Shown: positions 41,202-46,800 of the stretch, one piece after another
Layout of the letters: each line of letters begins with the position of its first letter
Numbering within the stretch: position 1 is the stretch's first letter
Assembly (NCBI GenBank): GCA_009733575.1
Contig: ML769473.1
Location: 1-64,000, forward strand
Source: Gymnopus androsaceus JB14
Taxonomy: Eukaryota; Basidiomycota; Agaricomycetes; Agaricales; Omphalotaceae
DNA: 64,000 bases
Direction of reading: 5' to 3'
Program-made: the position numbers and the translations under genes
The notes under the pieces: generated by a model
What the model was told of the DNA's origin: nothing
The model's input: the letters and a program-made list of their open reading frames with translations, nothing else
The model's database searches: none

Positions 41202-43572
41202 CTAGTCTTCATTAGCGGAATGGAGAGCCTGTAGGACTTGCTCTCGGCGCAACCACTTGTCTTCCGGAGTGAAATACCAGGTGAGGATTCCAAAGATGGT
41301 CACAGAACCGAAAATGACACAAGCCTGAGGTCAAAGATAAGCGACAAGAACCGCGATGGAGCTAGCTTTGGGACTCACAAAATTGAAGGATTCGGCATCG
41401 ACAGGAAAGAAGAAAGGCGATATCATAACCTGTAAAGAGGATGGATCAGCGAGAGTAACTGGAATAGATTACAACTTGGCACTCACTGCGAAGATTAGTC
41501 CGTTAAACATGAATGCACAGACATAGAACAGTTTGGCATAGCGCCCCAGGAAGAAATGAGAGGAGCGAAACTCGTTGGGAGTCATGGTGAAACGGAGAAG
41601 TGCAATGAGCCCGTAAGCAGCGATAGTAGGGACACCTGCTGCAGACACCAAGGAAGTGAAAGCAACAGCGCTGGGAAGGATTGTACAGAGCATCAAAGCA
41701 CTGAAGATATACAAGACGGTGACAGCGTTTTTCGGTTGGCCATTAGCAGTAACTTGGCCGATCCAGCCAGACATCGGAAGCACACCATCACGAGCAACTG
41801 CAAATACCAGTCGCGAAGCGGCGACAATGGCAACACTAGTGTTCTACGAGGCCGATAAGCATAACGGAAAAAAGACCGAAATCATTCAACAAAAAACTCA
41901 CAAGGATCAAGCCCAACACGGCAATGATGGTCATGAAGATGCTGGGTCCTTTACCAAGAGCCAATGCGTACAGTTGTACAAAAGGCTGAGGTGCATCCAA
42001 CGCGAACAGAGTGTTGAGGTCGGGAGTGCAGAACAAGAACAAAATTGTGGTGATAAAGCCCAGCACACCCGTAGCCAATGCGCTGGTCAATATTCCCTTG
42101 CCTGCTGTAACGCTTTCGAGAGAGACAAGATTAGTGCACATCCATTTAGATAGTGCGACAACTCACCTTGCATCTTTGGTTTCTTCAGCAATATGGCCAG
42201 ATGCATCGAATCCGGTCATAGTGCCAGCGGTGAATAAGCTAAACAAAGTGGATCAGCGAGAGCAGACACGAGATTGGTTGAGAAACAAACAATGAAAGCA
42301 TCCAGTTCCATCCCGCTGGCGCGCCAGTGCCGTTATCTGTTGTAGTTATTTAGACCGGGAAAAAATCCAGAAGAAATCATCGTACAACTCATGGTAAAAA
42401 CTTCCTTTGCATCCCTGAATCCGTAAGTCTTTGAGACTCCAATCGGCAACCAGATCAGGCAGAGGAAGAAGTCGAGCATTATCACAGCGACCGAGAATTT
42501 GAAGATCCCAGAATACATCTTCGGAGGCAAGTAATTGATCAGGGCAGAGACGATGAGCAAAGCTTCGGAAATAGCCCATATGAGAGCCCTCCATTTAACG
42601 TTGTCATTGCTCGTCCCACCAGGAAAGTCGACCTCCCAAACCGCAAGTTGTGAAACGATATAATTCGCTGTGGCCTATACAGTTGTCAGGATGTGGCTCA
42701 CTACTAGGAAAAGAAAACGCACCTGACAGTTACTCGCAGTGAAAGTCATCCAAGCCGTGCAAGACCACCAAGCGACGATGAAACCAAAAAACCGAGCGTA
42801 CTTGGGCCCAGCACTTTCAGCCGCCCATATGTAGATCGATCCACTCAAGGGTAGAGCAGAACATATCTCAGCAAGAACAGCAGCAGTCATCATCATGAAC
42901 ACAACAGTGATGACATAGGAAGACCTGGGGCAACGTGAGACAGATATTTAGAAGGAAACGAACTGGATATCGAACCAAACCGCTGCTGGCCCTCCGGCCA
43001 AGAGACCTAGGAAGAGAGCTGACCTGTGAAAGCAGCGTTTAGCAGTAGAACAAGGATTATAGGAAAGCAGAGCGTACCTGACGCCACCAATGAAATTTAA
43101 TGCGACAAAGCTAGCCGCAAAGCTTTCGATAAGATGCCAACTTCGATGCAGTTGCTGAAGATCTTGTATATCAGTATCAGGATTAGCAGTATGAAGAAGG
43201 ATGACAAGCCTGTTTATATCCTAAATTTTGCTAGAAAAAAAGTCAGTCAACCTGTTGAAAGCTCCCCAAGGGAGCGAAGTAAGTGACAACGACTGGGGGC
43301 TTCCCTACGCAGGTCTCAGCGCTGATCAGGTTCGAGCGGTATAATCTCAATCCTTGCGAGGCTTATTCCTGCGGAAATCACCCGCGACGGAATGAAGCAC
43401 TCAACAAGGATACCCGCAGCCATTTTCCAGTGAAAGGTCACTAGAGAAGACGTTACCAGTATAGCAGCATGATATCGCAAGGTCCACCCGACGCCCGAAT
43501 CTTTACCAGCTGGATTTCGTCTGCATCAAGGACAGCCCCTTGTTCTTCTCCTGATTTCGAGGTTATCGACAT
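41202..43572 (-). CDS. APC-superfamily transporter, probable thiamine permease (Thi9-like)
   Basis: Twelve-helix amino acid/choline/GABA-type permease. Exon 1 (start 43572) reads MSITSKSGEEQGAVLDADEI. After a 286-nt intron (43221-43506) it continues LHRSWHLIESFAASFVALNF, LAGGPAAVWF, then the signature LPLSGSIYIWAAESAGPKYA and ARFFGFIVAWWSCTAWMTFT. Later come FTAGTMTGFDASGHIAEETK, ILFLFCTPDLNTLF and VLPMSGWIGQV. Ends LRREQVLQALHSANED at 41202. Sequence alone fits GABA, choline or thiamine permeases. The TPP riboswitch inside intron 1 argues for thiamine, in line with Thi9 of fission yeast, an APC-family thiamine transporter. Exon 1 is the least certain exon because the join relies on splice signals rather than conservation. 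Confidence 0.82.
43292..43431 (-). ncRNA. TPP (THI) riboswitch in intron 1 of the transporter gene
   Basis: Read on the minus strand, all TPP-aptamer landmarks occur in order. P1: GGCU (43418-43421) with AGCC (43298-43301), extended by CUGG/CCAG. P2: GCGGGU (43412-43417) with ACCGC (43336-43340). A P3 stem, UCCUUG/CAAGGA (43405-43410 with 43351-43356), encloses a loop of about 48 nt, as in fungi. Then the pyrimidine-sensing UGAGAUUAUACC (43338-43349). Then ACCUGAUCAG (43322-43331) and CUGCGUAGGGAAG (43300-43312), the pyrophosphate-binding side. The aptamer lies wholly inside intron 1, as fungal TPP switches do, and GUAUCC inside P2 could act as an alternative donor. Control by alternative splicing is inferred from Neurospora. 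Confidence 0.92.
43316..43423 (-). promoter_or_regulatory. Upstream ORF inside the riboswitch
   Basis: An ATG within P1 (43423) opens a 35-codon frame (MAAGILVECFIPSRV...) that stops at 43316 within the aptamer. It would be exposed only if the intron is retained. That matches the known fungal arrangement, where thiamine-dependent retention brings in decoy uORFs. Function inferred. Confidence 0.5.
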
Positions 43573-43658
43573 TGAATCAAGAATAGCAAAGAAGATGGAA
43601 GTTAGGTGGAGAAAATTTTCGATCGATTTCGCTCAAAATACAGTGGGAATTATATAAG

Positions 43659-43727
43659 ATGTAGATAAGATCAACGGGGTCAAAGCGGCATTTCTCAAAG
43701 CCGCAAGAAAAAAAGTCTTATCTACAT
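43659..43727. repeat. Inverted pair of GATA-type sites / foldback
   Basis: ATGTAGATAAGA (43659-43670) and its exact reverse complement (43716-43727) enclose a smaller hairpin, GCGGC (43685-43689) with GCCGC (43700-43704). Each arm contains AGATAAG, a GATA-factor site. It lies 87-155 bp upstream of the transporter ATG, next to a TATATAA (minus strand, near 43654-43648). It may be a regulatory pair or a tiny foldback element. Confidence 0.5.
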
Positions 43728-43817
43728 GATCAATTTCTCAGAAGCCCGAACGACGCCGAAAGAAGCTCGATAGGACACCCCATGTATTAACCTCCCATCG
43801 AACGTTCGCTGCTCAGC

Positions 43818-46800
43818 TCAGTCAATATTGAAGCGCTAAAAAGACTTGATCAATAAGAGTTTCATCCGAGAATCAACTGGGACTAACCGGCTTCAATGCC
43901 TTGATAAGCTGCCATTCTTCGAGGGATACATCCGTTCTGAAGGAAGACTGGTTCCAAAAGTTTTAGAAAGAGCCCCAAACACTTCACAGAGGAGCTACAT
44001 ACCTTCAATACATCGATACTTTGCCTTGTGATGTGACTCAGCAATTCATCCTTGTCGTCAAAGTGTCGTCCAAACATCTTGGCCGACTGGTAAACAGCGT
44101 GTTCGATCTTGACGGCAACACCACCCCCAGCTTGGGATTTCTTCACAATCTACAAGGCGGTTATCAGCTGAGTTTATCATAATGGAGAAATGAACTTCCT
44201 AACCTCCATTGCTTTGTGGTTGATTTCCAGCGACGTTCTGCGTGGGGTGTTCAGGAACTGAGGTGCGAAGGAGCGATAATTAATATACATACACTTTACC
44301 CAGGTCTATGATCTCCTTCTTTTGGGTCGTTGGATCGATCTTCACGACGGCAAGAGGCGTCCCCACTCTCAGGGTGCCGTCCAGGATGTCCACTCCTAAA
44401 ATAATAGGATCTCGTTTACAGAAGGCGGCAATGATCTTCAGTCGACAAGGCCAGACTGCTTGAGGAGCCGCGTCCTTTCGTTTTGCGTCCACGATCTCTT
44501 GGTTGTAGACCGTGAACTTGTCGAATAGATGGTATATGATATCAGCTGTAGAGCGGTCAGCAGCAGGTTAACGGACGAGATAAGCACAAGAATTACCTTT
44601 GAACAGACGGATACCCATTTCTTCCGCCATGCGTTCTGCGTCCTTATCCACCGTAACATCGAAGCAAAGAATACATGCCAACTCTCTCGCCTTCTCCAGC
44701 ATGGTGGCAGCGCGCATGACATCCTTTTTGTGGACAGGGCCGATGTTGATGCCAGAAACCGGGATCTTACTGGACTTCAAAAAGTCCAAAAGGGCTTCGA
44801 GCGAACCAAGGGTGGAAGCTTGTACACATACGCCACGACCAGACTTGTCGATGTTACTGAGCAAAGAAGCTAAATCGGACATGACTTCTTCCTTTAGATC
44901 GTCCTCGTCGTCATCAGGGCCGCAAACGAGGAGTCGAGAACCAGCGATGGCTTTTTCAAGATCTGGAGCCGTGATCTTGACACCCAACGCAGCTTTTACT
45001 TCTTTGTGATGAACGTATGCAGACTACCACGGGATATTCAGGAAAATTCAGGAAATGTGCATGAAATACGCGTACTTTGATTCGCAATTCACGCAAAGGT
45101 TGAGGCGTTAGGAGAGCTCTGACTTGTGTAACGATAGGTCCATTCAGTCCGCAGACTACGATCTTGTCACCTTCGTGCAGGATACCATTTGAAAGGACCA
45201 CATCGATGGTAGTACCAAGACCTTCGATAACCTTGACCTCGAGGACCGTACACTCGAGCTCCGACAAGTACATGAGCCGGTCGCTCATTCTCTGTTGTGT
45301 AAGGTTGACCAGAAGCATAATCATGTCGGGAACACCCTCTCCTGTGATGGCAGAAGTCGGGACGAGGGAAACGTTACGCGCAAAGTTCTTGTTCTCGTAG
45401 TAGAGGACCGCGTTAAGACCCTCTTCGGCAAACGCCACGATGGTTTTAGCAACACGGTCTTCAAACTCTCGTTGAACAGCCTTTGTTTGACTTGCAAGAG
45501 ACTCTCGGAAAGCACCATCCGGTGTAGGATTCCATCCATATAGACGATCGATCTGGCAAGGTTAAAACGATATCAGATTGAGTTGACGGAAGGCTATAGC
45601 CCGGCGGTACGAACTTTGTTTAGAGCGACGAATGAATGGTGTCTTTCGGTCACGTAGGAGTCGTAACGATTCAAGAGTCTGAGCTTCAAGGCCATGCTGT
45701 AAAACTTTGAGCGGCAGATCACATACATCTTGGAGCAAAGCAACGAACCATTATATCGACCACCAAAATGGCAATGTTACATAGAGAGCTACCACGAGAG
45801 CGCAAGTTGGTGAAAGACTCGTGTCCAGGGGTGTCGATGACCAGTAAACCGGGAATTTTGTATTCTTGGGAACCATCCTATGTGCCACGTTAGAGCTTTC
45901 CGCTTTACAAGGTTGAAAGACTCGTGCCTACCCTGTTCAAGACGGCAGTCTTAGTGACAATCGCGTCCACAGGGAAGTATGTAGCTCCAATTTGTTGCGT
46001 GATACCACCGGCTTCACCCTCCTGGACATTGGTTTGCCGGATCTATAGAAGGTATGTGAGTGGACATGCCACGCAAAGGCCATTCAGAACTCCTTACTTT
46101 GTCCAGAAGCTTCGTCTTTCCGGTATCGACATGTCCCAGAATACAGCAAATAGGGCTTCGTAGGTCGTCTTTATTCCGGGCAGCTAAAGCAGCTTCATGG
46201 GCCTTGGCACGCCGAGCAGCCGCTTCCGCTTTCTTCTGCGCAGCCAACTTTTGAGCTGCACTGAGTTCTTCATCTTCGGAGGACTCTTCATCCGAGTCTG
46301 AATCGTCTTCAGAGGAATCGTCTTCCGAAGATTCATCGTCGCCATCGGAATCATCGTCTGAATCTGCGTCTGATTCGGCGGGCTTTGGTTTAGATGCATT
46401 GGCTGCGGGTTTTGCATCCGATTCAGATGGTTTGGGTTTGGGTTTGGGTGCATTGGCTGTGGATTTCACAGGAGCATGGGCAGGTTTCGAAGTGACTTGT
46501 TTTGAATCGGTGAGTGGAGCTGAGGGTATCCGTTAGGGTTAATCTAACAACGATAGAAAACGGCAACCTACGTGAGGACTTGACAGGTGCGGGAGTTGGT
46601 TTTTTCTCTTCGTCACTTGAAGCATCCCAAGAATCCTTGACCCCATCTCCTGCTGATTTGGTTTCCTCATCACTGCTAGCATCCCAATCGTCTTTCGCAT
46701 CAGCTGATCCGTTGGAAGGAGTTGGCTCCGGTTCCACTTTCTCTTCTTTCACAGCCGGGGACTCTGGTCGTGAATGAGCAGGAGATGTACCGTTTGCACT

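Follow-up and report, generated by a model that had tools for sequence, protein, structure and literature searches.

A TPP riboswitch aptamer within intron 1 of an APC-family permease gene of Gymnopus androsaceus

The window analysed here is a stretch of 64,000 nucleotides from contig ML769473.1 of Gymnopus androsaceus JB14 (GCA_009733575.1). It encodes on its minus strand a permease of a kind annotated in databases as transporting GABA or amino acids. The preliminary description of this locus, made from the letters and their open reading frames, placed a TPP riboswitch in the first intron of this gene and took thiamine as the probable substrate. The questions raised by the locus are whether the aptamer is present, how the intron that surrounds it is spliced, and what both would mean for the cargo of the transporter, for which a vitamin-B1-related substrate is supported below. 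The features of the region are listed in Table 1.

Table 1. Features of the permease gene, its first intron and the upstream neighbour
Feature	Position	Strand	Basis
APC-family permease gene, 12 exons, 520 aa, stop TAG 41204-41202	41202..43572	-	PF13520, PF00324, exon model
Exon 1, MSITSKSGEEQGAVLDADEIQL	43507..43572	-	12-exon model
Intron 1, 276 nt, donor S1 CTG/GTAAAG, acceptor TTTTTTTCTAG/CAA	43231..43506	-	Spliced model, relatives' N-termini
Possible alternative donor S2, CTG/GTAACG, 50 nt inside intron 1	43451..43456	-	Use inferred
TPP riboswitch aptamer, RF00059 model 1-105	43285..43427	-	47.4 bits, E 1.1E-6 genome-wide
Microexon 2, 21 nt, CAAAATTTAGGATATAAACAG = QNLGYKQ	43210..43230	-	Spliced model, homologous proteins
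Intron 2, 55 nt, GC donor CAG/GCTTGT, acceptor CTTCAG	43155..43209	-	Spliced model
eIF5B gene, 3' part, stop TGA 43820-43818, continues past 45000	43818..45000	-	PDB 3wbi match

Detection and structure of the aptamer

The minus strand contains a TPP aptamer. The genome (83,273,421 bases, 83.3 Mb, in 934 contigs) was searched with the Rfam TPP model RF00059, which matched this segment over its complete length and reported no second match up to E 10, 49 of the 2979 first-look candidates having been scored, so that weaker additional copies may exist. The same segment was returned by RF00059 with 42.0 bits (E 1.1E-6) when a 901-base piece was scanned against all 4227 Rfam families. Both this score and the 47.4 bits of the genome-wide search lie under the Rfam gathering score of 54.3, which is an inclusion threshold and not a structural feature. 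Because of this shortfall the default Rfam scan of the window gave 0 matches, and a search by E-value was needed to obtain the match. The covariance-model hit anticipated in the preliminary description therefore exists at E 1.1E-6, but below the gathering score and outside the reach of a default scan. According to the available text of PMC11683625, the size and variability of P3 affect the detection of such elements, and fungal models outperform generic ones. Folding of the aptamer segment beats that of all 200 dinucleotide shuffles, with a z of -2.9; a longer piece of the pre-mRNA is less exceptional, with 3 of 100 shuffles folding as well. At 43445-43540 a snoRNA-like match of 17.3 bits, against a gathering score of 90, was taken as chance.

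The P1-P5 architecture of RF00059 is complete in the alignment, which bears out the landmarks and the P1, P2 and P3 stems reported from the letters. P1 is formed by GGCU/AGCC, with a non-standard pair at the outermost position of the model, and P2 by GCGG/CCGC. P3 is long, consisting of AUCCUUG/CAAGGAU and an outer arm, and contains 49 inserted positions. The J3/2 junction is UGAGAU, with the UGAGA core expected for RF00059, and it is followed by P4 (CCUG/UAGG) and P5 (CAG..CUG), in which the P4/P5 motif GCGUAGGGAA is intact. The L5 loop is CUGAGA and does not contain 5'-RUAAUR-3'.

Riboswitches of this kind have been described before. Amino-acid-permease genes with TPP riboswitches are given as widespread in Basidiomycota in section 5 of PMC5882874, and the TPPsw-AA group is the most prevalent basidiomycete group in the survey of 156 medically relevant fungi in PMC11683625; RUAAUR is missing from L5 of this group in the same account. 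The discussion of PMC5997356, citing Moldovan et al., likewise places TPP riboswitches in basidiomycete THI9 orthologues. The L5 loop found here, CUGAGA without RUAAUR, therefore fits the TPPsw-AA group. As described in these sources, the TPPsw-AA/THI9 group shares with the present locus an aptamer in a basidiomycete APC permease gene, and the long P3 is a further likeness besides L5; no essential difference was seen, and the detail added here is the 21-nt microexon and the GC-AG intron that follows it. The riboswitch is thus a new example of a kind already described as typical of Basidiomycota. The premise that fungal TPP switches sit in thiamine genes had left out these transporter groups (described in the passages cited from PMC5882874, PMC11683625 and PMC5997356) and is too narrow to that extent.

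Exon structure and traces of the aptamer in relatives

The permease contains the domains PF13520 (E 7E-47) and PF00324 (E 1.5E-22), and no solved structure is similar to it by sequence at E 0.001. Of 7999 candidates scored in a protein search, 814 reached E 0.001 or better, and the best 120 of these were fetched. The closest among the listed relatives belongs to Rhodocollybia butyracea (89% identity), followed by Lentinula raphanica (85%), which would put the fungus close to the Omphalotaceae. Matches listed from the fungus's own genome outside the permease gene are 24-36% identical, and no close copy was seen among them. A least-cost splice search resolved the gene into 12 exons that encode 520 aa with zero mismatches and end in the TAG stop. 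This exact fit upholds the placement of the aptamer inside the first intron of an APC permease. Ten of the 11 introns are GT-AG, the exception being intron 2, which is GC-AG.

The proteins of relatives read DELQLQ(K/N)LGYKQQLHRSW at the N-terminus, and the succession of exon 1, a Q(K/N)LGYKQ-like peptide and QLHRSW was found in 45 of the 120 homologous proteins, many of the others being cut N-terminally. Intron 1 is therefore assigned to 43506-43231, followed by the microexon and the GC-AG intron, and exon 3 starts at 43154. At the 3' end of intron 1 a CTGAC branch-like site and a T-run precede CTAG. An acceptor at 43221 is also in frame but would insert DINRLVILLHTANPDTDIQDLQ, a piece absent from the relatives above shuffle level: within the N-terminal 130 residues of the 120 fetched proteins its best score is 33, and shuffles reach 36 (n=600). 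This acceptor was rejected in favour of 43231. Of the spliceable intron first proposed around the aptamer, the donor at 43506 is retained, but the acceptor moves from 43221 to 43231 and the length from 286 to 276 nt.

The microexon is skipped, with the frame kept, in six of the 120 homologous models (P0001, P0017, P0018, P0047, P0057 and P0081). Gene finders that pass over a GC donor would explain such models, and real skipping would do so likewise. The GC donor of intron 2 may still reflect a sequencing error.

Conservation of the aptamer at the same intron place in some relatives follows from gene models in which it has been translated by mistake. Among the 120 proteins, 105 could be tested, 15 having been dropped for an N-terminal piece of fewer than 8 residues, and six of the 105 contain an aptamer-derived peptide. 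Their local scores against the translation of intron 1 are 63-110, and the best of 2100 shuffles reached 47. The peptides span J3/2 to P4 or P5 and occur in two frames. A RLNLISAETCVGKP-like frame is read in P0069 (Mycena olivaceomarginata), P0002 (Lentinula raphanica) and P0035, and a RIEIIPLEPEQ frame in P0027 (Cyclocybe aegerita), P0117 (Termitomyces sp. Mn162) and P0032 (Gymnopilus dilepis). P0002 and P0069 also start with MAAGIL, which is P1-P3 read in the third frame. P0120 contains WLRVSLL but was left out of the count, its score of 36 being within the shuffle range. No aptamer peptide was found in the other 99 of the 105 proteins; a correct gene model would omit this peptide, so these proteins are uninformative about their aptamers. 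A database search with two translated aptamer pieces returned the queries alone (1 protein from 4 candidates and 1 from 6), and DNA of relatives was absent from the viral contigs and the bacterial and archaeal genomes. A number of the models of relatives are consequently doubtful at the 5' end, where the aptamer has been translated, the microexon skipped or the start placed late.

Proposed splicing outcomes and probable substrate

We consider it quite probable that the locus holds a riboswitch of the TPPsw-AA/THI9 type in a first coding intron, whose splicing would be lowered by TPP, and that the gene encodes an importer of thiamine or a precursor. Within this explanation we infer the binding of TPP, the direction of the switch, the use of S2 and the substrate; a lowering of productive splicing by TPP is the direction suggested by known cases. 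At low TPP, intron 1 would be excised from S1 (43506) to 43231, so that the microexon follows exon 1 in frame and the complete 520-aa transporter is produced. At high TPP, the aptamer with its bound ligand would disfavour removal from S1, and either S2 (43456) would be used or intron 1 would be kept. Both outcomes lead to an early stop, after 41 codons with S2 and after 39 with retention, and these products would probably be degraded.

The stops themselves can be read directly. S2 shares the core CTG/GTAA with S1 and lies 50 nt downstream of it, out of frame. Joined to 43231, it gives 41 codons ending ...LLYCKI-stop at a TAG inside the microexon, and retention of intron 1 gives 39 codons ending ...LLYW-stop at a TAA that overlaps S2. 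Read in either of its two other frames, the microexon contains a stop (TAG or TAA), so a mis-framed product would end at once.

This arrangement recalls, without reproducing, several known systems. In PMC5882874, in the part available, Type III denotes riboswitches in internal introns 200-400 nt long that have two donors separated by an in-frame stop. Like them, the present locus has an internal intron of 276 nt, donors at 43506 and 43456 upstream of the aptamer, and a truncated product if S2 is used. Unlike the type as described there, the locus has an open stretch of 50 nt from S1 to S2, and the earliest in-frame stop, a TAA, overlaps S2 itself; the stop of the S2 product arises from a frame shift and is read in the microexon. 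The locus accordingly works like Type III in our explanation, yet is not classed as Type III. In DUR31 and NCU01977 (Candida, Neurospora) a TPP riboswitch also lies in a transporter intron and the unspliced product stops early; these transporters belong to another family, and NCU01977 uses a long-range pairing, none of which was found here. Neurospora crassa NMT1 likewise offers a choice between two 5' splice sites that precede the aptamer, but its switch, which controls a uORF, lies in a 5'-UTR intron and not in the coding intron of a transporter.

The aptamer could also act by intron retention or by a full block of splicing, without S2, the sole productive splice being TPP-free, and we give this possibility somewhat less than an even chance. 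It has a precedent in Ogataea polymorpha DUR31, for which section 11 of PMC5997356 gives one donor and one acceptor, with a spliced product only in the absence of thiamin, and retention of intron 1 here would indeed stop after 39 codons. GTGAGT stands at four other donors of the permease gene, and S1 (GTAAAG) and S2 (GTAACG) are both without it. Pairing directed at S2 was not found either: for six aptamer pieces (including P4/P5, P1' and J3/2) 588-811 of 1000 shuffles paired as well with the donor region, and neither duplex energies nor thermodynamic folds revealed a pairing that would relay a TPP signal to the splice sites. When the aptamer was forced in folds of three lengths, the mean unpaired value of S1 moved from 0.33 to 0.43, 0.30 to 0.34 and 0.33 to 0.53, and that of S2 from 0.38 to 0.34, 0.36 to 0.34 and 0.38 to 0.33. 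The modelled shifts in accessibility are small and opposite to the proposed direction, S1 being slightly opened and S2 slightly closed. Forcing cost 9-15 kcal/mol in pieces of 251-363 nt, under energy models that include neither ligand nor spliceosome. Against retention as the whole account stands the second donor itself, which has the same CTG/GTAA core, is out of frame and resembles the published two-donor layout. The score below gathering and the unfavourable fold energy in context could also be taken as signs of a decayed relic without function. This we regard as very improbable, as the conserved core motifs are intact and the core persists as a peptide in six relatives, including Mycena, Lentinula, Cyclocybe, Termitomyces and Gymnopilus species.

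The riboswitch in the explanation preferred here, together with the family of the protein, makes thiamine or a thiamine precursor the most likely cargo. The alternative is that the cargo is an amino acid or GABA, in line with the annotation, and that the riboswitch makes uptake of amino acids depend on TPP status, thiamine itself not being transported. Several homologues are named gamma-aminobutyric acid or amino acid transporters, the domains are those of the APC family, and the authors of PMC5882874 allow, in the part available, for multifunctional carriers. The names of the homologues appear to be homology-based, however, and the permease scores 235.2 bits with TIGR00907 (amino acid permease, 2A0304), well under the cut-off of 598.3. 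Moreover, according to the discussion of PMC5997356, the thiamin transporter of fission yeast, Thi9, is an APC-type carrier whose orthologues in basidiomycetes have riboswitches. We therefore find transport of amino acids or GABA alone unlikely. A thiamine-related substrate remains the best reading of a TPP aptamer in an APC permease gene, which supports the preliminary description, but the novelty of that assignment was overstated.

The thiamine genes of the same genome are consistent with import. THI4 was found (C197), and its surrounding 8 kb held no TPP aptamer among matches up to E 10. Domains of a TMP-synthase and of the phosphomethylpyrimidine-kinase type were also found, and thiamine pyrophosphokinase gave a weak match below the cut-off. 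THI5/NMT1 was not found in the genome with a Pfam model that was positive in 12 of 14 prokaryotic control genomes, nor was THI5 found with the yeast Thi5 sequence, in a search without a control for an empty answer. The presence of THI4 and TMP-synthase with the apparent absence of THI5/NMT1 fits a need for import, and the loss of thiamine genes from some Basidiomycota is reported in the available text of PMC5955953. If THI5 is truly absent, the fungus depends on imported HMP or thiamine, and its apparent absence makes import of either a testable need of this fungus.

The neighbouring eIF5B gene

The gene upstream of the permease encodes eIF5B, whose C-terminal 304 aa match PDB 3wbi with E 2.7E-109. 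The two genes lie head-to-tail on the same strand, and the ATG of the permease is 245 nt downstream of the eIF5B stop (gap 43573-43817). Among the 120 homologous permeases, four are labelled eIF5B by a source (P0011, P0014, P0054 and P0106), and P0083 (Agrocybe chaxingu) is a fused eIF5B-permease model.

Section 5 of PMC5882874 describes a TPP riboswitch in an eIF5B intron of Gloeophyllum trabeum and two copies in the eIF5B 3' UTR of Postia placenta, and the authors call these cases an unusual exception that possibly bears on translation. As in those cases, a basidiomycete TPP aptamer here lies beside eIF5B; unlike them, as they are assigned in that section, it sits in the permease just downstream. 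By analogy, the neighbourhood seen here suggests a simpler reading, in which the published eIF5B riboswitches are probably the neighbouring permease's own, and it offers a simple explanation for this published oddity. No earlier correction of the assignment was found in the searched literature joining TPP riboswitch and initiation factor 5B, in which PMC5882874 stood alone. A wider reading can be proposed tentatively, and we rate its four parts together at slightly under even confidence. The switch of Gloeophyllum and Postia would not be a regulator of eIF5B but the first-intron switch of a permease; this permease would stand head-to-tail behind eIF5B across agaricomycetes; it would carry the sole TPP switch of mushrooms without THI5 and control the main entry of vitamin B1; and the 21-nt microexon would be a built-in reading-frame gate.

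Between eIF5B and the permease there is also a perfect 12-nt inverted repeat, ATGTAGATAAGA...TCTTATCTACAT, at 43659-43727, which flanks a GCGGC/GCCGC hairpin. The 106-base stretch that contains it matches itself alone in the genome. As a guess, the repeat might mark an end or boundary, or serve as a palindromic site for a GATA-type factor. The window contains its pattern a single time, and 0 of 100 shuffles contain it.
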